A stretch of 64,000 nt of DNA from Thozetella sp. PMI_491 (lineage: Eukaryota; Ascomycota; Sordariomycetes; Chaetosphaeriales; Chaetosphaeriaceae), in contig MU270018.1 in NCBI GenBank assembly GCA_021432635.1, positions 1,242,796-1,306,795 of the forward strand, written 5' to 3'. A model generated the notes under the pieces. It was not told where the DNA came from. It saw only the letters and a program-made list of their open reading frames with translations, and made no database searches. Positions 5,189 to 59,235 of this stretch are shown in pieces. The translations under genes were made by a program, and so were the position numbers. Within the stretch, counting starts at the first letter, position 1. Every line of letters begins with the position of its first letter.

Positions 5189-8100
5189 TTAGATACCGTG
5201 GGCCGTCTGCTTCAGATCGTCAGGGACCGTCCATCCGTGGGCACGGGCAGCGCGTATATAGGCATCTACTGCCTCGTCGACCTGATAATCGTTGAGGGCG
5301 GTGGCCCCGGCGAGGCGTGCCGGTTTGGGATCCAGGCTGGAGAGGGCCATGTGAACTTGCAGTAGCACGCTCTCCATCGAGTTGGCCGGGGTCCAGCCAC
5401 TCATGGTCAGCAGCTCCATACAGATGGCACCACCGGCCGTGACGTGACCACCGCCTCCCTGCTGGAAGGGCAGGAAGCGTGGGCGAATGACGCGGACGAA
5501 GGGAGGGCTGAAGGGGAACTGGGACGGGAAGCGAATTTCTACCACGACAGACGTGCAGCCAGCCGTCTTCATGTCCTTGGCGAGAGGTAGCTCGCTGTCG
5601 AAGCTGTGGAGCTCGACAATCCACTGGAAGAGGTTGTCCACCTCGTCAAAGTTGATGTACCAGCCTAGCTCATGCAGAGGGGTCTTGGTCTGGATCTTCT
5701 GCAGTGCACTGAGCTCCCGGCCTAGCGCCTGTGATGCGATATCAGTGGCCCAGGAAGGGGCCTGGAGGCGTGGAAGGCCGCTCAAGAGGAGAGTTCCCGG
5801 ACAGAAGTCGGTTGTGAGCGTGGCTTCATCCGCCGTGGGGGACGACGCCGGTCCCATCTGCGTGGAGATAGGTGTGGGAGCGAGCATAGTCGCATCAGTT
5901 GCGCCACCCGGGCTTTCGTGCCGGAGCCGCTGCGCATTGGGTTCATCGGGGGTTTCAGAGTCGTCATCTGAATACAAGAAGACCGCATCATCCTTGTCTA
6001 CATCCTTGTCCTCATCAAGCAGATCCTGGAGGGGTCTCTTAGCTGCCGTGTTGGGTGCCGTGGGAGTAAGAGAGACAACGCGCTGGGGGATGGCAGCTAA
6101 CGGGATCTCGATTTTCCGGCCGGTAGGTCCCTTGATCTCCCGCCCAGGAGCCTGGATGAAATACTGACGACCACTTGAGCTGTTGGACGGAGTCATGGCC
6201 TGGCTGTTTTGGTCGGGCTCAGCTGGGGGCTGTGCTCTGGATGACTGGCGCAACACGTCGTTTGACCGATTGGTCTGGACAAAGAGGTAACGGCATTGGT
6301 GCCAGGAATTGTTGGCAACCACATAATGGGGGCTCTGGGAAACAAACTTGGACGGGACGTTGATGATCTCGTTCAGGCTCATGCAGCTGTTGAACTTAAG
6401 GTCCGAGTTGGGCCACTGGCCGATAGCGCTTCCTGAGTAGCCCATGCTCACACCCTGTTTGTCGCTGAAATAGACACCATTGCCATAGGAACGGCCAGTG
6501 CGGAGGTCCACGTAGTCTAGGCCAGTCCTCACGATGCTGTGCCAGTTATACAACGGGCTGCCGTGCCAAGCAAAGATGGTCGGATGCCGGATTAGACCAA
6601 GGGTTTCATCCTGTGCAAGCTTCTCGAGAGCGCGCTTGAACTGCAGCTCCTTGTCCGGGGAGCCTTGCATGAACTTGAACTGAGCCCAGCCCTCCATATC
6701 AGGAATTCGTTCGTCCTCGCGGTTCCGGCCGCTGCCGGCGGGGCGCTCGTCCGCATCAGGGCCGACGGGTACGGTGGCAACTAGGGATCGGGACCGGTCG
6801 ACTTGAGAAATGCAGGATCGGTTAGACGATACGATCCACTGCAGTAGAGCAACCGCGGCGGGGCTGACTCTGGTCATGTGGGCTAAACGACGGTAAGGAC
6901 TGGCTGATAAGAACTCCTCGATGGCGAGGATGGAAGGGAGCGTATCGAGAACATGACGCATGGTTAGGGCCTTTCCGTCTTCAGAAAGCGTGTCAAAGCC
7001 CACGTCATACTGATAGAGTTCACCGGTGTACTTGTACCCACAAGCAGTCGGCTGTGATGTCCGGGCTAGCTCCTCGCTGTTGTCGCCAAACGTGCTATAG
7101 TAGCCTGGGCCAACGTGAGTGTCGACCTTGCCGGATTCGCAAATAGTATCAACATTGATGGCTTTGTTGTTGATATCCACCGCACATATAATGCCATGCG
7201 TGAGAGGCGGATTCTCAGTCGCCGATACTGGAAGCTTCCGGAAAGCCACCCACGTACCTGGAGTCAGATGCCTGTGAAAAGAGGCCGCGGGGTCTGAGAG
7301 CTTCAGGCAAGCAGCGGATTCACCACCGTCAACCTCAACCCTTGTCGCTGATTGATTCAAATTGGTGGTCTCTAGGTTAGGGACTAAAAAATTGAGACCG
7401 ACTGGAAAGTCGCGGATCGGGTAACCGAGCCGTCCCACCCCCTCGGAACGCCCAAGGGGCCGAATGATAGCCTGCTTCTGTATACTTGTATAGCAGAGGC
7501 TGACTAACAGGTCCACGGCATACGGCTGGGTGATAATCTCGTGCTCAATGCTGCTGCCAAGGCCAAAGGACTGGTACTGGAATAGGCAGAGTGGATTCTC
7601 GCAAACATAGGGTCGAATTGCACCAAACTCGTTGTCGAGCTTTTGATGGCAGCGTAGGCAGAACTCGGTGCACTGTGTGAAGTACCGCAACGCAAATTCC
7701 ATGGCGACCAGCGGAAGGCTTCGACCGTGCTTGTCGGCCGTGTCTCCAAGATGATCAGACAAAGGAGTCATATCATTGTATGACCCTGTTGGTGACTGTG
7801 GGTCGCTCTCCAGAGCGTTGTCGGCGGAGGGGTGATGATTAACCGTCTGTCGTGCTTTGAGTTCCGTGTTTGCCTCGTCCCAGGAGATACCCTTCAGCAC
7901 CCGTAGTCTCAGGAGATGAAGGAATGATTCGGTCATGAAGCGACCAAGCGAATCTGAGACCAGGATGCGCTGGAATGGAGTGTCAGAAGATGCGCCAGTC
8001 TCGTCTTCATGGTTGCGGCTAGGAGTACCGGAGACGGCGGCCATCGCAGACTGGAGATCCGGTTTGTACTTGCTGCATTTGCCGATGGCAAAGTTGATTT

Positions 8101-9023
8101 GGAAGTCACAGGTGGAGATCGGAGTCGAAACGATCTCGTCCAGGGTCTTGTAAGGCTCTGGAAAGCGAATGAGCAGCACCAAATATTCCTCGGGCTTGAG
8201 ATCCCAGGCCTCGACAGCCTCCTCCGTGAGACTGAGGTTTTTGATGCAGATCGAGATAGAAAAGACACCATGGGTCAAGTCCTTGCCCATATCATCCAGG
8301 AGACCGACCTTGTATCCGGCGTCACGGACTTTGCGGAGATCGCGTCGAATGAGTCTCAGGAGCTTTTCAGCCTGGCTTGGCGATAGGACGGGAGCCTGAG
8401 CTTTCTTGCGCATCCAGCTTGGCCAGTCATCAAGTAGCATCTCGTATGGGTCCTCATAAGGATCATCATTGAGGTCCTCGTTGGAATCCTCGTCGGGATC
8501 CTCGTTGGGATCCTCGTTGACAGTGCTCCTGTTTTGGGGGTTGTTGTCGTCATCCCCGACGTTGAATTGATCTCCAGTCTCCACATGTTTGTCGTGAACG
8601 CGGTCGATGGACGTCTTGGGCTTGTCAATCGAGTCATTAAGGATGTGAGCAAGCTTCACGGCCATATCTAACGGCTTAAGGCCGGTAAGAACAGAACTGC
8701 AGTCCTCCAGGGCCTTGACGAGATCTTGAGGTGTGTCCTCGGCTTCGGTGAAGGCGATGAAGCTCGTGAAGTTGGGGTAGTAGTCAACCTCTGCGATCAT
8801 GTTAGCTGTCCTGTTTCACTCTCATGCTAGCAAGTAGCAGTCACTTACCTCCATCGAGGACAACATGCACACGCAGCGGTGCCTTGAGACGATCATGATG
8901 GAATTTTATCACCAGTTCTCCATCGGAATCACCATGCCTCAGAGCGCTTAAGCCCGAGATGTGCCCATCCTCGACATGCTGTCGGGCAAGGGCCACGTCG
9001 GCCTTGAATTGCCGGTAAGCCAT
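5189..9023 (-). CDS. PARP6/8-like ADP-ribosyltransferase fused to UBE2Q-like E2 (2 exons)
   Basis: Exons 9023-8849 and 8790-5189, split by a 58-bp intron (GTAAGT donor, GCTAAC branch), give 1258 residues. Order: an N-terminal region with an acidic NED-rich repeat (about 150-170); a Cys-rich zinc-binding-like patch (CLRCHQKLD...CENPLC, about 435-460) of the kind found in PARP6/8; the PARP catalytic fold (about 790-910) with HGS at its first triad position and SYGNGVYFS carrying the second-position Tyr; a basic/acidic linker; and a C-terminal UBC fold (about 1085-1220) with its candidate catalytic Cys in GGAICMELL (about 1181), the UBE2Q-like form. The usual third PARP Glu appears replaced (SPHYVVAN), which predicts mono- rather than poly-ADP-ribosylation. 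PARP-UBC fusions are known in filamentous fungi but poorly characterised. Substrate and location are unknown. Confidence 0.9.
8467..8522 (-). repeat. 12-bp acidic tandem repeat inside PARP-E2 gene
   Basis: Imperfect copies of a 12-bp unit (GGATCCTCGTTG on the plus strand) code on the minus strand for repeated NEDP/DEDS/NEDL tetrapeptides, an expandable acidic linker in the N-terminal part of the protein. Confidence 0.75.
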
Positions 9024-16527: not shown

Positions 16528-18238
16528 ATGCTTCAGTCGTACACCAAGTACTTGGCCGTTTCCGCAGTCACCATCCTGATCTTGCTGGTGCGGTGGGCAA
16601 CCAGCGCAAGACTCGACGCCCGCGAGCCACCCCTCATCAAGTCGAAGGTCCCCATCATTGGACACATAATCAACCTCCTGACCCAGAAAGGGAACTTTTA
16701 CCCTTCCTTGTAGTGAGTGCACGACCTCCACATAACTTGTACATAATATTTGTCCGGTGCGACCTGGAGACTCACCAACGGTTCTCATCCCCCTCTTCAG
16801 TGAGAAAAACAGGAAATTCCCCATCGGTACCCTGTCTCTGGCCGGGAAGAAGATGTATATCATCAACTCACTGGCCCTTATTCAGGCGGCCCTCAAAAAC
16901 AAGAACCTCTCGTTTGAACCCTTCATTAGAGAGTTCTGCCAGAAGACTATAGGCGGATCGAAAGACCAGTTCAAGTCATCCACGCCCCCGAGTTCCTCCC
17001 CGACTTGCATGCCAAAGTGCACGGGTCTATGACAAGGGAGGACGTCGATAAGATGAACCGAGCCGCCCTAGTGAATATCGCAGAGACGTTGAATGCGATC
17101 GGAGTCGGTGCTGGTACCCCTACGCTAAAGATCAAGAATCTCTACCTTTGAATCAGAGACCTGATGACTCAAGCCACCTTCGAGGCCCTCTACGGGCACC
17201 ACAACCCTTTTCGCGGGAACTCCCAGTTATGCAAGGACATATGGTAGGTTTCCACCTTCGTTTTCGTACCGGTCTATTCTAACGAGCTCCTGCAGGACCT
17301 ATGATGCTGGCTTCTTCAGCCTCGTAGCGCACCCCTTCCCCCAATTAACCTCCCGCAAGACAATAAAAGCCAGAAGCCGAATCCAGAACGCCCTGCGCAG
17401 CTACTATGGCAATGGATACGACACGTTACCGGATGCTTCCAAGATCCTAGCGGAGCGTGCAGTGGCCCTCCGAGAAGCAGGCATTGCAGCCCGGGAAGTC
17501 GGATACTACGAAATTGCTTTGGCGAATGTATCTACCACTAACAGCATTCCAACGGTCTTCTGGCTGGCCGTAAACATCGTCTCTCGGCCGGAGGCGGTAG
17601 CGGGCATCCGAGACGAGGTCTCGAGGATGGCGACCTTCCGCGAAGTAGAGCCTAGGAGGCGGGTGGCCACCATCAACATGGCGCTGGTGGAAACCCACGC
17701 ACCCTTCTTAGTCTCGTGCTACCGCGAGACGCTGCGCTGTTATAACACCCAGATCGGCGCACGTCGCGCTTTAGTAGACACAGTGCTCTCGGATGGCCAG
17801 GGAAGCACGTACCTACTCAAAGAAGGCAAGGATATTCAAATGCCCTCCGCTGTTTCGCACAAGCTGCTTGAGGTTTGGGGTCCGGACGCCGTGTTGTTTC
17901 AGGGGGCCCGGTTTGTCGAAGAGGCAGAGTCAGATATTGGCGCGCGGAAAGGGGAGGAAAAGCAGAAGAAGGCGGCTTATATCCCATTCGGTGGTGGCAA
18001 GCACCTTTGTCCCGGGCGTAATTTCGCCTTCGCCGAGAACCTGGGGTTCGTGGCGGCGCTGGTTATGGGCTTTGATGTGATCGGTGGTGCCGGTGACGAG
18101 CCGGTGAGTGTCCCTAAACCGGGGCCGATGCCGCTGGCATCGGCCGTCTCCAAGCCGATCGGCGGCGGAGAGGACATTCCAGCTTTGATCTCGAGGAGGA
18201 AAGGGTGGGAGGATGTTGTGTGGGACTTTTCCATCTGA
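16528..18238 (+). pseudogene. cytochrome P450, broken by one frameshift and one stop
   Basis: Haem-thiolate monooxygenase of the microsomal type, resembling the fungal CYP7/CYP8-like group. Reconstructed exons: 16528-16712, 16801-17243 and 17296-18238, with introns that have good GTGAGT and GTAGGT donors. The N-terminal anchor (YLAVSAVTILILLVRW), a Pro-rich hinge, CYRETLR in the helix-K region and the haem loop PFGGGKHLCPGRNFA with its Cys ligand are all present. Two lesions fall in exon 2. Near 16973-16978 the frame shifts by one base after QFK, just before the conserved VIHAPEFLPDLH segment. At 17149-17151 a TGA sits where the family has TGG (Trp) before IRDLMT. Everything else stays open to the natural stop, so the inactivation is recent, or these are sequence errors. 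Upstream ATGs at 16384/16396 are alternatives. Confidence 0.8.
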
Positions 18239-24625: not shown

Positions 24626-26554
24626 ATGGACTGGCTCGCTTGCATCCCCATAGGCTCGCTAGGTACTGCAGAGCGTCTTCGGATGCCGGAAGCCCTGCCT
24701 AGTCGTGTGGCCTCCCGGGGCCTTCTGTAGCCTTTTCCTTCCTCCCGTTCGCTCACGTGCATCACCTCTTGGAGTAGAGCCTCTGGCATCGCGAGCTGCC
24801 GTCCGGATCTTCATGTATCTCTGCAGCTCGCTGGCTCGCTATTTTCTTACCAGGTGCCTCTCCGGCCGGCCTATCTAGAGCTGCCAGCACATATGCTACG
24901 TCCGGGCTTGCATGAGGAGCTACTATACAGACAGTCGGGCACACTAACGCGTCGCTTCCGCAGGCTATAGCAACTCCTCCAGTTGCGGTTACTGCCGCCG
25001 CTCCCGAACTGGTCAGTCTCCAAAACGTAAATCAACAATCCTTCCTGTCTCCTTGTGTGATCTCGCCACCCGTCCCCACGACGCTTCAGACCAGTTGCAC
25101 TCCTAGGTACCATTCGGTCACCCGTTCGCTTCGCTGCACGGCCTGGCATCCCTGCCTTCTAGCTGACTGCTGTCTCTCTCGTCCCTCTCCGATGCTGGAC
25201 CCTTCCAAGGGCCTTGGCGAACCGAACCACCACATCACCCTGTCCTTGTTCCTTCAGTTGGTCTCTAACCGTTGCGCTCGTCATAGGGTATTGCTATTAC
25301 GCCTCAACCACTTCTCTCACTCCGGAATTCTACCAGGACCTGCTGGACCGGTGCTGGAGGCGATCTGGCACCCTCCTGTATCGCCCAAACCAGAAAGAGG
25401 CATGTTGCCCCCACTACACTATCCGTTTAGACTCGAGTGCCTTCAAGGCGACCAGGAGCCAGAGGCAAGCCATCAACCGCTTTAACAAGTACATCCTTGG
25501 CGAGACTTACATGCAAGATGTCGCCCGTCTCTATCCCCTATCAAGGGAGCAGGCGCGCAAGCGAGATAACGACTTTGACCTCGTAGAGAGAATGCATGAG
25601 GCCGAGAGCACTGCACTTCGCACGCCACCCGAGCCAGCGCATCAACTAACGGTCACGCTTGAGCCGGATGCCTTTACCGAGGAGAAGTATACCGTCTTTG
25701 AGAACTACCAGCGCATCGTCCACCAGGAACCCCCTGACAAGATCTCACGGTCGGGATTCAAGAGGTTCCTGTGCGACTCGCCTGTTCAGCGCCGAACGGA
25801 AGTCGGCCCCGACGGCAAGGAAAAGAAATTGGGATCGTACCATCAGTGCTACCGCATAGATGGACGTCTCGTCGCCATCGGGGTCCTAGACCTACTCCCT
25901 AACTGCGTCAGCGCCGTCTACTTTCTCTACCATGAGTCCATCCACTCGTACACCCCTGGCAAGGTGGGTGCCTTGAGGGAGATTGCTCTCGCTCGAGAAG
26001 GGGGCTATCGGTGGTGGTACGCTGGCTATTACATCCACAGCTGCCCGAAGATGAGATACAAGATCGAGTATAGCCCCCAGTATGTCCTCGATCCAGAGAC
26101 ACTCGCATGGGATGTCCTAGACAAGGAAGCACTGGCCATTTTTGACAAGAGGCACTACGTGAGCTTGTCTAGGCACAAGGGCCTCGGGAACGACCACGAT
26201 GCCGAGGACGGCACCGGAGCAGATGCTCGGTCCCAGCCCGAGCCAGAGCCAGAGAAAGAGCCGGAGCCGAGGCCCGACTCCGACGATGATGACGACTCAG
26301 CCATGATGTTCCTCTTTGCTTCCAACTTCCCCGGCATCCCCACGCTGCAGGAAATGGAGGCCGCCGACTTGGACCACGTCAAGATATGGTCTGACGCAGG
26401 CTTGTACCCGGCATCCGCCCTGCGTGTCTGGGACATGGAATCTATCAGTCAGCCTCGAAGTCTCAAGAGTGTCATCGCCGAGCTGGTGGCGGCCGTCGGG
26501 CTCGACCTGAGAGACCAGTTCCGTCTCGACTTCCGTCGACTCACTCGATCGTAG
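24626..26554 (+). CDS. ate1: arginyl-tRNA-protein transferase ATE1 (3 exons, first tentative)
   Basis: Transfers arginine from Arg-tRNA to N-terminal Asp, Glu or oxidised Cys, marking proteins for the N-degron ubiquitin pathway in cytosol and nucleus. Exon 3 (25287-26554) is certain: TPEFYQDLLDRCWRRSGTL, the CCPHYTIRLD cysteine pair, NRFNKYILGE, and the C-terminal GNAT-like half with VSAVYFLYHES. Exon 2 (24964-25011) codes GYSNSSSCGYCRRSRTG, carrying the CGYC motif that partners CC in binding a metal cofactor. It has clear splice sites on both sides and a 275-bp intron after it. Exon 1 (24626-24662, MDWLACIPIGSLG) fits in frame, but its donor GTACTG is weak. The whole gives 450 residues. A Glu/Pro/Asp-rich insertion (about 345-370) is lineage-specific. 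Confidence 0.88.
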
Positions 26555-31122: not shown

Positions 31123-32274
31123 TGCGTCGGTTGTGCGATGTATGCGGTGCGCAGTGGTACGGCGTAAGTCGTTAGGCGCTCGGCTGGGTGCGAGAGCAAA
31201 GGTGCGAGAAAATTGTAGGAGAGTTTGGGGGTATCAGATGGGCGCGAGGGGCCAATTCGAGAGCGACGTAACGAGGAGAAGAGAGCAATGAAACCTTAAG
31301 AGAGCGTGTCTGTCTGCTTCGCCTGCTCCGCAAGACAAGGACGAGAAGAGATATGAGCCAAGGCGCGGGTGGTCACGAACTATGTGGCGGCCCAGGAATA
31401 CTCCTACAAGGAACGACAGCGACGGCGACGACGATAGCAAACGACAAGCGGCAATTAAAACACGGCAGTGAAAGGAAGGAAAGGGAAGTGGGCGAGAGAT
31501 ATGGCAGGACCGGCGAGGATCATGGGCGTGCGTCGGGACGCCCCGCCGCTTTTGCGGGCTCGAAACCAGAGACGTTAGAATCTCCGCCCACTAGGCCAGA
31601 CTAGGACGACAAGATGTGAGGCAGGCACAGGGCGGCAAGGACCCCTGAGGCTCCCTGGTGTTTCAAAATTGTTGGAGAGTCGACTGATTTCTTAAGTAAG
31701 CAGCTCCCATTGGCCTAGGGCGACGTCGTCCCATGTTGGACGCGCCATGGCTACAACCGCTGCTCGTTGCATGCGATCGACCGTGAACCGGATCATTAAG
31801 CCCTCCCGCATCCGTGATTCGCGCAATTCTGGAGTTCGATATGGAAAGATGAATGAGACGGGGAACAACGGTCCAGGCCTAGAGATTAGCTAAGCTCAGC
31901 TAGGCAAGGCCTGGTGTTAGGGACCCTCGGGACCCAAACGAGCTTAGTCAGGGGAGAGGAGAAAAGGAAACTGCAGCCCACAAAAATCACGTGGATCGAC
32001 ATATGGCCGCTTAGCTAAGCTAAGCTGCTAGCCAAGCTGCCACTGTACGGCTGCGGTCCATCAAGCGTGTGGGAGCCACGGGTCCTCGCGCCTGAGAATC
32101 GAGGCAGCAATTTCTTTCGTCGGACCCAGAAAAATTATTGCTGGTCTGATCGTGCTCGCATGCTCGAGCTCCAAAATTTCAGTCAACCCGAAAAAAGCTT
32201 CCGGCATTTCTCACCTTCACGACCGCGACGTCGAGCCATTGGGATCCTCTGATACCCAATTGATTGACAGAGCG
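31123..32274. promoter_or_regulatory. divergent promoter region with TTAGCTAAGC repeats
   Basis: Lies between the small membrane protein and uS5m, transcribed away from each other. Two related AGCT-rich segments (31883-31903 and 32009-32039) contain repeated TTAGCTAAGC palindromes. A minus-strand element near 31557-31598 has tRNA A-box and B-box like words but does not fold as a tRNA. An in-frame ATG at 32152 precedes the uS5m start. Confidence 0.4.
31883..32039. repeat. paired TTAGCTAAGC palindromic motifs
   Basis: TTAGCTAAGC occurs in both segments, at 31887-31896 and 32010-32019. The second is followed by TAAGCTGCTAGCCAAGC and the first by TCAGCTAGGC. Palindromic and duplicated about 120 bp apart, in the uS5m promoter. 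Confidence 0.6.
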
Positions 32275-33778
32275 ATGACGGCGGCACGTCCAGCGGCCCG
32301 GAGTCTTCTCTCCCGGCTGGCGTCGGCGTCCGGCGCGACGGCCGGCGCGGCGCCCTTGCGAGCAGCCGCCGCCACGCCGCCATCGTGCCACCACTTCCAC
32401 AGCTCCTCTCAGCTGCAGTCGCGGAGAAAATCCCGGTTCAAGAACGTGCGAGCAGAGGCGATGGGCCTGGTGTCCCAGAAGGATCTCGACAAGTGGTCCA
32501 GCGAAAAGTTCCCGACCTACACCCCCGAGGAGAAGGCCCAGCTGAGCAAGGTCTACTCCGCCGAGCAGATGGCGGCTCTCGAGGCCGGCGAGGCCGCTAT
32601 CGACCCCAACGACCTGACCATACAGGGTCGGCTGCGCAAGGACAACTATCGTCTGCCGTACCTCGACGACTTCCGCAACTACGAACCCGTAGTCGACAAG
32701 CGCCCGCGGGACAAACCGCCGCCGGACCCGAAGGCCAAGTTCATGGACTTGGACGAGTTCACCGACGACATTATTGCGTGGGCCGACGAGCTAGGAAAGA
32801 AACAACGGGCAGCACCGTCCAAGACAGTCGAGGACTTCATCCCCGAGGGGTTCAAGAGTATCCCCGAGGCCGAATGGCCCCCGGAGGCAAGGCAGGTGGC
32901 GGCAGACAGATACGCCAAGTACATGGAGAAGCAAGATAAGGGACTGGAGGTGGAGGGGGCCGACGATTTCCCACTCTTCTCGTACATGCTGGATCGCTCC
33001 AGCATGACAGATAATAACGCCGAGTCCAACTCACAACTTGCCCCCGCCCTCCCCAACAAGGTGCCCGGTGTTGCGGGCCTGTACAGCGACCCTGTTGATC
33101 CGGAAGATGAGGGTCTCGATGACCTGGGTGTTTATAAGTCCCTCAAAGCTCATACGGGTCTGTCGGTAAGGGAGATCATGGATATCAAGTGCAAGGTTTT
33201 GGTACAGCGGATCGTGGTCAACCAGACGCGTCTCGGCAAGATTCGAAGCTACTCCGTGATGGCTGTAGCCGGGAACGGCAATGGATGGTTGGGCTTGGGG
33301 ATGGCCAAGTCCACTGAATCCACGACAGCCGTGGAGAGGGCGAAGGAGCTATCCATCCGCAACATGCGGCCGATTCCTCGCTACGAGAACCGGACCATCT
33401 TCGGTAACGTCGAGGCCAAGGCTGGAGGCACTGTCGTGCAGCTCTTTGCGCGCCCACCAGGTAAGATCTCCCAGCTGCAAAGCAGATGGCCCCCTCCTTC
33501 GTTTCCAGCGCATATGACTAGGAGAAGCTGTGTGCTGACAACCTCCGTCCTCGTTAGGCTTTGGCCTCCGCATCCCGTACCGCCTCTTCGAGATGGCACG
33601 TGCTGCCGGAATCCACGACCTCGCGGCCAAGATGCCTCGCGGCCGCAACCCTATGAACTCGGTCAAGGCCTGCTACGATGCCCTCATGAACCAGAAGAAC
33701 CCGGAGGAGATAGCCATCGGCAGGGGCCAGAAGTTGGTGGATGTCCGCAAGGTGTACTACGGCGGCGCTGTACTGTAA
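32275..33778 (+). CDS. mitochondrial ribosomal protein uS5m (2 exons)
   Basis: Small-subunit protein of the mitoribosome, homologous to bacterial S5, at the mRNA entry/decoding region. Exons 32275-33460 and 33558-33778, split by a 97-bp intron (GTAAGA donor, TCGTTAG acceptor), give 468 residues. The first 30 residues (Arg, Ala, Ser-rich, few acids) are a mitochondrial presequence. A long fungal N-terminal extension follows. The S5 core is near the C-terminus: the dsRBD-like part with KVLVQRIVVNQT and KIRSYSVMAVAGNGNGWLG, then the C-terminal lobe GFGLRIPYRLFEMARAAGI...NPMNSVKACYDAL. I chose the ATG at 32275 because the presequence begins there; the frame is open upstream to 32152. Confidence 0.95.
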
Positions 33779-34158
33779 TCCTGTATATTCAGTGTACCAT
33801 ATCCCGGCCATTAGATGCCTCTTATTGGGGTAACATTCAGGCGGGCCATGTACAATCCCATACCACTTTTTAAACACCGTGCCTGTTTTTTTTTGTAAAT
33901 TTTTTTGGGTAGACTAGCTGCATCGGCTTCAGAATTGTGAATATGGGTATCTTGGGATGCTCCATCCGAAGGGCCCCACAGGGCGGAAACCCCGGCCTGC
34001 CGTAGCCCGTTGCTCCTTCGGGGAGCTCTCTACGTCGGCTCTCATACGTCGGCCGCCTCAGGCCGCTCATAGCCCTCGTACTCTCAGTGGATTCTAAGAC
34101 GGTCGCGCAGGCTGCGCCTTCGGGCCGGTCCTGCATGCCTCACACGTGTTTCCGGCTC
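33779..34158. other. convergent 3' flanks
   Basis: Between uS5m and Dad3. Contains T runs near 33886-33905. No gene seen. Confidence 0.6.
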
Positions 34159-53784: not shown

Positions 53785-56700
53785 TCAAATCATCTCACTC
53801 TGGTGCAATCCTGTGCGAAAGTTGTTTGCCGCGTGTACTTCAGCAGGGCTCTTGGCTAGGTCTTGCCTCGCCACGGGGCTTCGGGTCATCTCGGCGCGCT
53901 GCTGGAAGCTCATATTGCTCATCGTGGAGGACGGTAGTGGGATGCTCTCGTACGGGGCAGCGGTGACCTCGGGCGACCGGGTCCGGCTGTTGTCCCGGTT
54001 GGGACGGTTGCGGCTTGCAGAACGCATCCGCTCAGCCGCGCGCGTGATGCGCGCTCCGATGCTGTTGTCAGCGCTACTTCGGCCTCGACTATGTCCCCGC
54101 GCGTGGGGAGGCGCCGGGGCGGCGATGATGGGCACGCTCGTCTCCGAGACTGGCACAGCGATACCTGCTGGTCCCTGTTTCACGTTCTCATCCGTAACCA
54201 CCTCTACTGCTGCAGGCTTGTTCGAGTACGTAGACTGCGTCCTAGCGGCGGCTTGAAGAGGAGCAGGTGGGGGAGGAGGCGGCATCTTCAAGTGCTGTAG
54301 CTCCTTGATGATGGGTGGGGCCGGGACGGCTTGAGTCATTTGGTTGTTGTCTTGAGATGGTCGATGCCCGGCAATCATATAGGCAGCCTCCCCGGTACTC
54401 GTCTTCCTCAAGTGATGTCCCCGTGGGGCATTCCCTAAGGTGAAACTCGGAAGCGTGACTGGTTCGCGTGGAGAAGCATCCTCAGGCGGCGCCGAAACGG
54501 ACCGGGCGATGGGAGGCCGAGCTTGAGCGGATGCAGGCGGAGGGGGGGTGTATACACTCGAAGGGAGCGGTGTGTAAACAGTTGAAGGGAGAAGAGTCAC
54601 GGGGCTCTGTGGGGGAACGTCCTTAGGTTCCTTGTTCGGAGAAGGTTGGGCGGAGTGCAAGTTCACCAATGGAGGGGAGGCTTGGGCAAAGGTAGAAGGG
54701 ATTGGCGGCACGGGTTCGATAGACGCTGACTTGCTCGAGTCCGATTCAAGGACAAGTCGCATGGCCTTGGGAGTAGCGGGAAGGCCGATCATAGGACCTC
54801 GTGTCGCATACATGCCCTGGTTCTTGCTCGACGGCGAGTTGTTGTTCGCGCTTCTCATCGGCGAGTTGTTGTTCGCGCTCCTCATCGGGGATTCCTTGGA
54901 TGGCGGCACATAGGTGTTGGCACTAAGCACCAGGCTAGCAGACTGCGTTGCTGACAGGTCTATGCCGCTAAGCGGAGGCCGCAAGGTAGCTGGTGAGAGC
55001 TGGTCAGGGTGGGGGATGGACGGGGCCATGTGGCGTCTGGCAAGGGATTTGCGGCGCTCCTCGAGCTCACGGGCTGCCGCTTCCTTCTTTAGCTGCCTTT
55101 CATCCTTTATGATCCTCAGGTCGCCAGTGTTGTCATCGTGGACGAGCTGCATGGGAGCCGGAGTCGGCATGGGATCGGGCCGGCTGCGGGCCCGGTTGTC
55201 CGATGCCTCGCGGGACTCCCGCGTGGTGTAGCGCCTGCGGCTTTCGGACCTGTCCCTACTATGGTCCCAGCCATGCTGTCGGCTTGAGCGCGTCGACTGG
55301 GCAGGAGACGTTGGATCTCGGCTTCCGCCACGGCTGGAGCTTCGCTCACGCCGACGGCGAAAGTTTTCTTTAGCCTCAAGGGCTTGCCTGTACTCCTCCT
55401 CGTCCGAAGAGCCGTGGAAGTGGTCGATGCCGGCAGACATTGGGAGTGGTGAAGTTGGAGAACGCGTCCTAGAGCTGTCGCGGACCTTGGTTCGGCCCCG
55501 GGTATCCATAGCTGGCGGAGGCCGCATGTCAGGACTGCGGGCCCGGCGCTCACGGCTGGCACCCCGACTCACGCCCCGGGTCTTAGATGACTCGCGGATC
55601 TCAGGCGTGCCCCTCCTGGACCTGCTCTCTGAGCGATCTCGGGGAGCGCGCCGAGTCTGCTCGTTCTTTGCTTCAGTCGTTGGGTCCTTGGGCGTAGCGA
55701 GGTTGATCAGATCCTCGGGCGACATCGGGACCGGCGAGGTTGGCGATCTCTTGGGGCCAACGACACCGTAGGTGTTGCGCGACGAGCCCCGACCGCGGTC
55801 CTTAGATTCATCTCTGTCCTTGCGAGATCGGCTGCTCTCCCGGGCAGCGCCTCGGCCGTCGCGGCTAGAAGTGCGAGTGCGGGACTTGCTCTGGGCAGAA
55901 TCAAGGCTGTGGATGTAGTCATTTAGGCTCTTCCCGCCATGTTGGCCTCGGTGGGTAGACCGAGAGACGACACTTGAAGCAGCCGAGGTGACAGAGCTTG
56001 CAACAGAGCCCGGACCACGACGTTTGGGCCAGTGATACTTGCTGTTAGAGGCTGCCGACTGTTCCGGAGATTGCACACGCTCCAAGAGGTTGGAGCGGAG
56101 ACCGGTCAGATGTAGTTCAATCCCCTCAGGGATCCGGGTGCGCGAGCCATTCCTCTTCCTTCCGCTTTCCATCAACGCGAGCACAGCTTGAGGAGAAGGC
56201 GATGGTGGCACCTCTGCCTTGCCGAAAACCTCCCTTTGGCTCTGCCTGATCGCGGCTCGTGGGCTGGCAGCATTACTTCTTACTGATTGCATCTCCTCTC
56301 TGGCCTGTACCTCGCGCCTGGTCGAGTAAGTATCGCTAGCCGCCGAGTAGGAAGAGAAACCAGCCGATGACAAGCCTGCGGATGAGAGATCAGTAGACGT
56401 GTACGCCGTCAATATCTCTCGCGGGTTTGCGTCGGGAGCCTCTCCAATCGAGGGCAAGCGCTGTCGTGAGAACCCGTGCGCCGGGCGAGCCGACGAGGGT
56501 GTGTTGAATGCACTCCTGTTCGAAGGACGTAGGACCGCGGTCGTGGGCTCGCCATGTCCCTGAGGAGAGAGGGCAGACTCTGCGATGGGAGTGACGCCAG
56601 CAGCCAGCGGCGTCTTGCCTCCATCACCACCTGCGAAGAACTTGGCCTTTGCGCTCTGGTCACCAAACGAAGTGATGAGCTTGAGTGCCGATGTTTTTGC

Positions 56701-59235
56701 AATACTCCGCTGAGGACCTAGGTTCTGCACTGCGGGGGGAGACAGTGGTGGGCTAAGTATCTCGCCGCCAGGTGACTGCCCGTCACCCGCCATTGCTCCC
56801 GAGATACTGGGGAAGCTGATTTGAACCGCAGACGGAGACGTCCAGGGTTCAGTCGACTCCTGTCCAGTACAGGCAAAGCTATATGCTGGATTAGCCAGTT
56901 GCACTACTGCGTGGCCTGGAATATACTCAAACCTACCATCGGACTGCCAGTTGCTGTTGTCCATGCAGAATTGCCCACTCGCCCCATGCCTTGACAATCG
57001 CCCCCTGCCGCTCCCAGACGCGCGGGAAGAAGAGGCAGGCGAGGATTAGCGCCTCCATGTACTTCTTGTGCGAGATATATATCTCGATGGCATCGTTGTA
57101 GTCGCCCAGCCCCACCAAGATGGTTGCAGCTGCGTGAGTGTCGCCAGTCTCCAAAAGGCGCTGCGTATAAACCCGACCGAGCTTATGAGCAGAGCTTTGG
57201 TTGCCGATGCCGCTTAACGCGAGAAGCATCCAGTCTGACGAGGTCATGTTCTCAGTATTCGCCATCATCGCATCCGCATTCATGTCGCCTAGCCATTTTG
57301 AGAGCAAGATGCGAGTAGTAGAGCCTTGAGGGTGGCGGGACATCTCGTCATGGATCAAGTCCTCAATCTCCTTATTCCACCCAAAAATGATGCTTAGCAT
57401 CTGACGTCGAAGGTCATCATTGGTCAGGCGGCCCTGTTCCGACGTAAAAGGTTGCTTGTATGGCACATCATGGAGTCGGCTCCGGGTAAACTTGAAAAGG
57501 TCGTGAACCTTGGTGTCAACCTCGGGGCTACGGGGAACCTCGTGCCTCAGCCGTGACGGCTTGTGCCGCGACCTGTACTGGGAAGCCGAGCTCATTGACA
57601 CAGAGCTAGTCGTTGAGTATGAATCCCTCTCCCTCTCTCTCCTCTGGTATGCAGGTGCCTGGGACGAGCGCATAGAAGAAGTTGACGAGATATAGGTGTT
57701 CTCCGTCATGCTATGAGACACCACGGATGGGGCGTAGTTCCTAACATGGCCCGGGGTCTGCGAACCCGACGACGAGATTGAGATGCTTGACCGGCTTCGG
57801 CTTGAGACTGGACTGGTTGTGCGGTACCGGTCGAGATCGTCCGAGTCAGTTTCGGCTTGGATCATCCGGGCGTACGGGGACCTCCGCTCGTCATCGCTTT
57901 CTGAGATTTCGGCGTGGATGGGGATCGAGACGGCTGATGACTCCGTCTCCGAGTGGTTTCCACTCTGCTGGCCTTTGTCGTGCTCTTCTAGGGAGATCGG
58001 GGGTGAAGGTGGGAGGAGGTTTGCGGGGTGTTGCACATTTGCCACCATCATAGGGGGTGCGTTAAGATCGAACTGCTGGACAGTGTTGTTGGCTCCCAGA
58101 GTGAAAAGGTTCGCTCCAGGGCCATAGACCGCCAGGCCGCGGACATTATCCAGGGTCGGGATAGGGTCATATGTGACAATTTTTGTCCGCACGTCCCAAG
58201 CAATGGTATCGCTACCTGCAGTTAGCATCGTGGCCCCTTCGAAACCGGACTGGGACCTGGGGATTGCTTACGACTCAGAGTACTGGATGATCCTCCCGTT
58301 TTTCGACCAGGACATCCAATTCGGCCCGGCGATGTAATTCTCCGTCCTCTTCAGAATCCTCACGACCTTAGCCTGCTCGTCGTTACTGTAGGACTTTGAT
58401 ACACTCCAGACCCGAAGATCGCCGTCGCTTGTCTGCACTGCCAGCATGTCTGACTTCTGTCGAGACGAGGAAGCGTGCCACGCGAGGGTGACGATGGGAG
58501 ATGGGCCCCTTGAAGTCGTCAGGTTGTGCAAAATGGTGAATCTGGGCTGAAGTGTAGCAATCAGAAGAGAGCCGTTTTGATAACTGCCAAGGTCTCAGTC
58601 AGTGTAACACTAAGGGACCGCGGAGAAGACAAACCCGATGGCAAACGTCCTGCAATCAGCGGCAGGGGCGATCGCTGAGACTGATATTTGGTCAATGGTC
58701 CTCGCCGACAAGTGTTCTGATGTCGTGGGTTCGAAGAGTATAATGTTGCCCTGAGCATTGCCTGGATATAATTAGCCACCGCGTGGCTCAATATGAGACA
58801 ACCGGGCGGGTTGGGCTCACCAAATGCGACATTTCCGTTCTTCATCCAAGCAGCACATGTGAGGTGCTCGTACGAGGCGAACCGCGCCACTTCATCCCCA
58901 GTCATGATATCCCATACAATGGCCGTCTGTCCAGCGTCATAGCTGACCACCAGTCGCCCGGCTCCCAACTCGCTCACGTTGTCAACCGCCAGAAGCAAAA
59001 CCTCGTCGGAGTGGCGGGCGAACCGCTTTTCTATCGTTAGAGTATCATGGTGGGCGCAGACAATGGAGCTCCCCTGGGCATATAGGAACATAGATGCGGT
59101 CGCTGCGCAGGGTTCAAAGTACCGCGCGGGCGCGTTAGCGCTCGACGGCCTCGCAAAGTCTTGCATGTTGGTCGTCCTTCCCTTGGGAGTCATCCCCACG
59201 CTGGAACCGTCACGAAGTGGGCCGGAGACAGACAT
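53785..59235 (-). CDS. WD40 protein with helical and long disordered C-terminal regions (5 exons)
   Basis: Exons 59235-58821, 58761-58635, 58583-58272, 58211-56937 and 56878-53785; introns of 51-60 bp all keep frame, giving 1740 residues. The first about 330 residues are WD40-like repeats (SYDAGQTAIVWDIMTGDEV, TSDGDLRVWSVSKS, SDTIAWDVRTK). After a Ser-rich linker comes a helical repeat region (about 560-715) with LLETGDTHAAATILVGLGDYN and DAIEIYISHKKYMEALILA, resembling the TPR-like part of Gemin5 or Sec31-type scaffolds. The last about 1000 residues are disordered and rich in Ser, Arg and Pro, with RSRS/SRDRS stretches. The family is conserved in filamentous fungi, but I cannot give it a firm function; a coat/scaffold or RNP role is inference. 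Confidence 0.85.
54832..54885 (-). repeat. 27-bp tandem duplication in WD40 gene
   Basis: Two 27-bp copies differing at one base; they code the repeated nonapeptide MRSANNNSP. In frame, in the disordered tail. Confidence 0.9.

Follow-up and report, generated by a model that had tools for sequence, protein, structure and literature searches.

Proteins in which an ADP-ribosyltransferase (ART) domain of the PARP type is joined to a ubiquitin-conjugating (UBC, E2) domain are not new as a kind. They have been in print since 2010 (Citarelli, Teotia and Lamb, PMC2964712) and were surveyed again by Perina et al. (2014, PMC4245714). Here, we describe such a PARP-E2 fusion gene in Thozetella sp. PMI_491. 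It lies in a window of 64,000 nucleotides (assembly GCA_021432635.1, contig MU270018.1, positions 1,242,796 to 1,306,795), and all coordinates given below are those of this window unless another contig is named.

In the 2010 survey, Clade 6A is a fungal group of proteins in which a long N terminus is followed by a PfamB_2311 region, a PARP domain and, at the C terminus, a UBCc domain with an active cysteine. Most of its members share an RWD-like N-terminal domain named FPE (Pfam-B_30617), and none of the Clade 6 proteins found by the authors carries the final glutamate of the HYE triad. For PARPs lacking this glutamate, the authors leave a loss of activity possible (PMC2964712). Perina et al. 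report a UBCc domain in PARP6/8 homologues of Ascomycota, Basidiomycota, a moss and Chlamydomonas, and they describe a CX2CX9-19CX4C motif for the PARP6/8 homologues (PMC4245714). Such a distribution of the fusion argues for a selected partnership.

On the ubiquitin side, UBE2Q1 and its kin were reported in 2024 to place ubiquitin on serine, threonine and sugars. The UBE2Q enzymes have no HPN motif, the catalytic cysteine of UBE2Q1 is Cys351, and Tyr343, His409 and Trp414 are essential for the non-canonical activity of this enzyme (PMC10971424). Hybrid ADP-ribose-ubiquitin marks have been reported from 2025 on. According to a review of the same year, the roles of such domains, including the 'enigmatic E2-like folds' of PARP6/8, 'remain to be described' (PMC12687431). 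Among the matches listed in our literature search, judged by titles and abstract starts and with most subscription journals outside its reach, there was no study on the biochemistry of a PARP-UBC protein from fungi.

The Thozetella protein carries every Clade 6A feature that we scored (a PARP domain, the histidine and tyrosine of the triad without the final glutamate, a C-terminal UBC domain with a cysteine), and it almost certainly belongs to the PARP-E2 family already known from fungi (Clade 6A, PARP6/8 type). Since such fusions have been published since 2010, the gene is ordinary as a discovery. Its moderate interest is that a current biochemical question becomes testable with it.

Gene model and single reading frame

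The fusion gene occupies positions 9023-5189 on the minus strand and encodes, with a single predicted intron, a product of 1258 amino acids followed by a stop codon. The coordinates, the strand and the length of 1258 residues that had been proposed in the first-pass annotation were reproduced by this exon/intron model and its translation. The core of the model is a minus-strand open frame of 1208 codons (8815-5189), which spans both catalytic domains. Assuming independent bases with the composition of the sequence, a run of 1200 codons would stay open with a probability of about 10^-18.5. Nine frame-keeping introns of 40-120 nt were listed by a script. A GTAAGT donor was present in two of them, a 43-nt intron leading to a protein of 1263 amino acids and a 58-nt intron leading to one of 1258. 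We chose the 58-nt intron because a branch-like CTAAC stands before its acceptor only.

The gene model is known from the DNA sequence alone, and three branch-like sequences occur between 6400 and 5700, an interval that begins within the ART domain, spans the linker and ends where the UBC domain starts. Both points would suit the reading that two genes were misread as one. However, no match to the donor consensus GTRNGH was found in this interval, the frame is open over its 1208 codons, and the GC content at the second codon position was the lowest of the three positions in all seven segments tested. Because of these three observations, it is very likely that the ART and UBC domains are encoded on one mRNA. 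In addition, fungi with a like fusion are reported in both surveys (PMC2964712, PMC4245714), and we consider the two-gene reading hardly credible.

The two catalytic domains and their residues

Both domains were recognized by Pfam in the same translation. For the PARP catalytic domain (PF00644), the long-frame translation gave an E-value of 1.5e-9 and a score of 38.1 bits (curated cut-off 26.7), and residues 640-905 taken separately gave 1.4e-10. For UQ_con (PF00179), we obtained 1.2e-8 and 35.1 bits (cut-off 27). The ART structures nearest in sequence to residues 640-905 were PARP16 (4f0d, 2.2e-5) and then PARP2 (0.00039). In the alignments with both proteins, H801 (in HGS) and Y832 (in SYGNGVYFS) take the first two positions of the catalytic triad. 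The third is occupied by Y893, which a second alignment segment places under a tyrosine of PARP16; this segment scores -1.7 bits and is not significant by itself. By alignment, the triad of the fusion protein thus reads H801-Y832-Y893, and its third residue is not glutamate. The triad of PARP16 is H-Y-Y.

The lack of glutamate at the third position suggests mono-ADP-ribosylation, but it does not prove activity. It is also compatible with one of the two domains being a pseudo-enzyme scaffold, for instance an active E2 joined to an ART that does no more than bind NAD+ or ADP-ribose, or vice versa. The activity loss that Citarelli et al. leave possible for such PARPs (PMC2964712) would agree with this reading, and so would the altered residues near the E2 cysteine that are described below. 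However, the histidine and the tyrosine of the triad and the catalytic cysteine are all present, and PARP16, a Clade 6 protein with tyrosine aligned at the third place, has been reported to mono-ADP-ribosylate kinases of the endoplasmic reticulum (PMC10789625). A scaffold role of either domain appears unlikely to us.

For the UBC domain, closeness to UBE2Q was judged against solved structures. With residues 1050-1258 as query, UBE2Q2 (1zuo) was matched at 1.6e-20 and UBE2Q1 (2qgx) at 1.3e-18, and the next-best solved E2 followed at 1.6e-4 in a search with a 1205-residue translation. When we looked for an HPN motif in this domain, none was present. Thus, by sequence the domain is a UBE2Q-type E2. 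Its Cys1182 aligns without gaps to UBE2Q1 and UBE2Q2 and corresponds to C351 of UBE2Q1.

The claims of the first-pass annotation on these domains held up well. It had described a PARP catalytic fold with HGS and SYGNGVYFS, a third triad residue other than glutamate, and a UBE2Q-like UBC fold with a cysteine in GGAICMELL, and all three descriptions agree with the alignments and with the Pfam matches above their cut-offs. The union of both folds in one protein can now be specified as a Clade-6-type ART with a UBE2Q-type UBC, and its remark that such fusions are known agrees with the two surveys, which report them from fungi. Taken as a whole, its interpretation is partly supported.

The similarity to UBE2Q raises the question of what the E2 may modify. 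Ubiquitin esters on ADP-ribose, made by Deltex ligases, have been reported and seen in cells (PMC12000418, PMC12583694, PMC7615817). In the fusion protein, MARUbylation without any E3 might proceed in cis: the ART would add ADP-ribose and the UBE2Q-type E2 would esterify ubiquitin onto one of its hydroxyls, with no need for a Deltex ligase. The UBE2Q-type character of the domain, the missing HPN motif and the published activity of UBE2Q enzymes on hydroxyl groups (PMC10971424) are consistent with such chemistry. A Deltex C-terminal domain was not found in the Thozetella genome, in a search that lacked a positive control and does not establish absence.

However, inspection of the single residues points in the other direction. 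Tyr343 of UBE2Q1 is replaced by His1174, His409 probably by Ala1240, and Trp414 is apparently kept as W1245; the latter two assignments follow from a W-x-x-P register outside the UBE2Q alignment, and the UBE2Q1 residues were taken from the published mutant list. Two of four contacts of the closed conformation of UBE2Q1 are conserved (L354, E367), and the other two are changed (Y364 to Asn1195, M371 to Leu1202). All tested mutants of the UBE2Q1 triad except Y343F failed to discharge on a test peptide (PMC10971424). His1243, two residues ahead of the conserved tryptophan, might replace His409, but this is conjecture. Judged by Tyr343, His409 and Trp414, we do not count the domain among the UBE2Q1-like hydroxyl-ubiquitylating E2s. 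Because only the tryptophan of the three essential residues appears to be kept, ester formation is possible but not indicated; we regard it as quite improbable and retain it as a testable minority reading. If it were true, ester chemistry could be old, since UBC-bearing PARP6/8 homologues are listed for fungi, a moss and, in one of the two surveys, a green alga.

Other regions, neighbouring genes and genome searches

The positions of all features are summarized in the table. Judged by position, the stretch between the four-cysteine motif and the ART domain would be the counterpart of the split RWD and the helical extension in PARP6/8 (PMC10450202), and residues 1-380 that of the FPE region in Clade 6A. 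Profile searches gave little for either part. For residues 1-120, the Pfam match (PH_CAYP2, 0.054) was below its cut-off, the PDB matches were two mitochondrial ribosomal proteins (0.65 and 0.84), and none of these was significant. For residues 430-670, the sole match was Galectin-8 at a non-significant E-value of 1.2. We also considered residues 190-380 as a further E2-like fold, but this idea was not supported: neither Pfam nor PDB gave a match up to an E-value of 10. Comparison of four segments of the protein in six pairings, including residues 190-380 with the UBC domain, revealed no similarity (the best phmmer E-value was 0.12, at a negative bit score, and hhalign probabilities did not exceed 0.5%). 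The acidic stretch at residues 150-180 (8426-8518, minus strand) contains an imperfect repeat of the NEDP/DEDS type.

Table. Features of the PARP-E2 fusion gene and its product (window coordinates)
Feature	Residues	Position	Strand	Basis or remark
Exon 1	1-58 and one base of codon 59	8849..9023	-	ATG at 9023
Predicted intron, 58 nt		8791..8848	-	GTAAGT...GCTAAC...GCAG
Exon 2		5189..8790	-	one open frame with both catalytic domains; TAA stop included
N-terminal region	1-120	8606..9023	-	intron-interrupted; at the FPE (RWD-like) place of Clade 6A, position only
Acidic stretch	150-180	8426..8518	-	Asn/Asp/Glu/Pro-rich by direct reading; likely disordered by eye
Part of FPE-place region	190-380	7826..8398	-	E2/RWD-like by eye only
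Four-Cys motif	C436-x2-C439-x15-C455-x4-C460	7586..7660	-	fits CX2CX9-19CX4C
Candidate helical extension before ART	661-790	6596..6985	-	by position, weak; no Pfam match
ART catalytic domain	791-900	6266..6595	-	borders approximate; PF00644 and PARP16 4f0d matches (residues 640-905)
Triad position 1 (HGS)	H801	6563..6565	-	aligned to PARP16 and PARP2
Triad position 2 (GVYFS)	Y832	6470..6472	-	aligned to PARP16 and PARP2
Triad position 3 (no Glu)	Y893	6287..6289	-	under PARP16 Tyr; aligned stretch not significant alone
Linker	901-1060	5786..6265	-	Pro/Ala/Ser/Asp-rich; no GTRNGH donor match in 6400-5700
UBE2Q-type UBC domain	1061-1258	5192..5785	-	borders approximate; UBE2Q2 1zuo, UBE2Q1 2qgx, PF00179
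Residue at UBE2Q1 Tyr343 position	His1174	5444..5446	-	8 residues before Cys; alignment, coordinate from codon map
Predicted catalytic Cys (UBE2Q1 C351)	Cys1182	5420..5422	-	gap-free alignment with UBE2Q1 and UBE2Q2

Searches of the Thozetella genome covered 72.3 Mb in 157 contigs. PF00644 was found at three places, which are the fusion gene, a PARP that has WGR and regulatory domains, and a PARP whose regulatory match stayed below the cut-off. The fusion protein was the only PARP of its type found in this search, which takes the exons one at a time and may overlook a diverged copy. In the PARP with the regulatory-domain match below cut-off, on contig C8 (L002, 709-2118), the catalytic match (1.5e-26) covers 135 of 199 profile positions; this frame may be incomplete, divergent or interrupted by introns.

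The E2 comparison comprised 20 of the 32 PF00179 places of the genome (places being exons rather than genes), and that of the fusion gene is not among the 20. A simple motif scan of these 20 loci showed HPN in seven, a variant in three and no clear cysteine site in ten. A degenerate UBE2Q-type cysteine motif had one exact match in the genome, the fusion gene; the pattern was matched eight times in bacterial records and not at all in viral contigs. On contig C44, a frame of 719 amino acids (L025) carries an HPN-type E2 domain amid other sequence and is another candidate for a multi-domain E2.

Macrodomains were detected at three places, which makes readers or erasers of ADP-ribose plausible in this fungus. 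One of them (contig C21, 565903-566292) lies within an open frame of 606 amino acids and is a possible ADP-ribose reader or eraser. PARG was not found, in a search that had no positive control and leaves its absence unestablished. In viral contigs, we obtained three pattern stretches for the UBC domain, eight for the ART region and five for the UBC core, and none of them was confirmed by tblastn. With the 1205-residue translation as query, 25 pattern stretches were found in prokaryotic genome contigs, again with none confirmed.

The window also contains an arginyl-tRNA-protein transferase on the plus strand (25163-26551; ATE_N 2.5e-20, ATE_C 1e-42), an N-degron gene that is separated from the fusion gene by about 16 kb. 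The plus strand also carries a cytochrome P450 frame (17168-18235, 1.1e-17) and a frame with the N-terminal domain of ribosomal protein S5 (32032-33870, 6.8e-21). An open frame of 1086 amino acids on the minus strand (53788-57045) had no Pfam match at 1e-5 and is overlapped by the next frame (56933-58267).

Proposed coupling in cis and comparison with known systems

How might the two domains work together? From what is known of the families, the ART domain would use NAD+ to modify itself or a bound substrate with single ADP-ribose units, and the UBC domain would be charged with ubiquitin by an E1. The long linker may allow both domains to act in turn on one substrate, so that the two modifications would be coupled in cis, and the N-terminal region together with the four-cysteine motif may supply the binding of substrate or of an E3. 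We give the sequential coupling of ADP-ribosylation and ubiquitylation about an even chance, and the statement as a whole (a Clade 6A mono-ART and a ubiquitin E2, coupled in cis on a shared substrate) seems to us evenly balanced between right and wrong.

Several points weigh against this proposal. That the ART and UBC domains share a substrate is what we infer. The single-sequence AlphaFold2 models were unusable for both domains, with a mean predicted local distance difference test score of 39.1 for the UBC domain and of 32.4 for the ART region. Several residues required in UBE2Q1 are altered (His1174, probably Ala1240, Asn1195, Leu1202), and the viral and prokaryotic scans yielded no homologue that could show whether the family conserves its catalytic residues. 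Moreover, the surveys disagree on the green algae: for the green algal clade 6B, Citarelli et al. give no further known domain (PMC2964712), whereas Perina et al. report a UBCc domain in Chlamydomonas (PMC4245714). The taxonomic breadth of the fusion is therefore less sure than the latter survey alone suggests.

The presence of ART and E2 domains in cis would also fit a regulatory relation of the kind raised in the first-pass annotation, in which ubiquitin, the fused E2 domain or a further E2 is the target of the ART and the ubiquitin activity is thereby switched. ADP-ribosylation of ubiquitin is known in another system, but in the same report ADP-ribosylation of UBE2Q1 was undetectable (PMC10951314). 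No residue or interface of the fusion protein speaks for such a switch, and we consider it rather unlikely.

This copy of a long-known fusion adds little alone, and its value is that of a test case for coupling in cis. With both enzymes on one chain, there is a simple way to ask whether ADP-ribosylation and ubiquitylation are made together. It can also be asked whether human PARP6/8 retain, in their E2-like folds, what is left of such an enzyme pair.

When the fusion protein is compared with the known systems, the Clade 6A fungal PARPs are closest. They have a like domain order (long N terminus, ART without the third glutamate, C-terminal UBCc), and no difference was seen among the features that could be scored. 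With human PARP6 and PARP8, it shares a four-cysteine motif before the ART domain, which in these proteins belongs to a C4* finger accompanied by RWD folds (PMC10450202), and a third triad residue that is not glutamate, as in Clade 6 generally (PMC2964712). In the 2010 survey, only PfamB_2311 and PARP are identified in the clade of the human proteins (PMC2964712), and the 2023 annotation assigns RWD folds to them (PMC10450202), whereas the fusion protein ends in a UBC domain with a cysteine. PARP16 has the nearest solved ART domain by sequence and a tyrosine at the aligned third place, but it carries a transmembrane helix (PMC10450202), and in the fusion protein the ART is followed by a UBC domain. 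UBE2Q1 and UBE2Q2 are by far the nearest solved E2s; they share with the fusion protein the lack of an HPN motif and the motif around the cysteine. An RWD domain is present in UBE2Q1 as well (PMC10951314). Unlike in these E2s, the UBC domain of the fusion protein is joined to an ART, and it carries His1174 for Tyr343, probably Ala1240 for His409, and Asn1195 for Tyr364.

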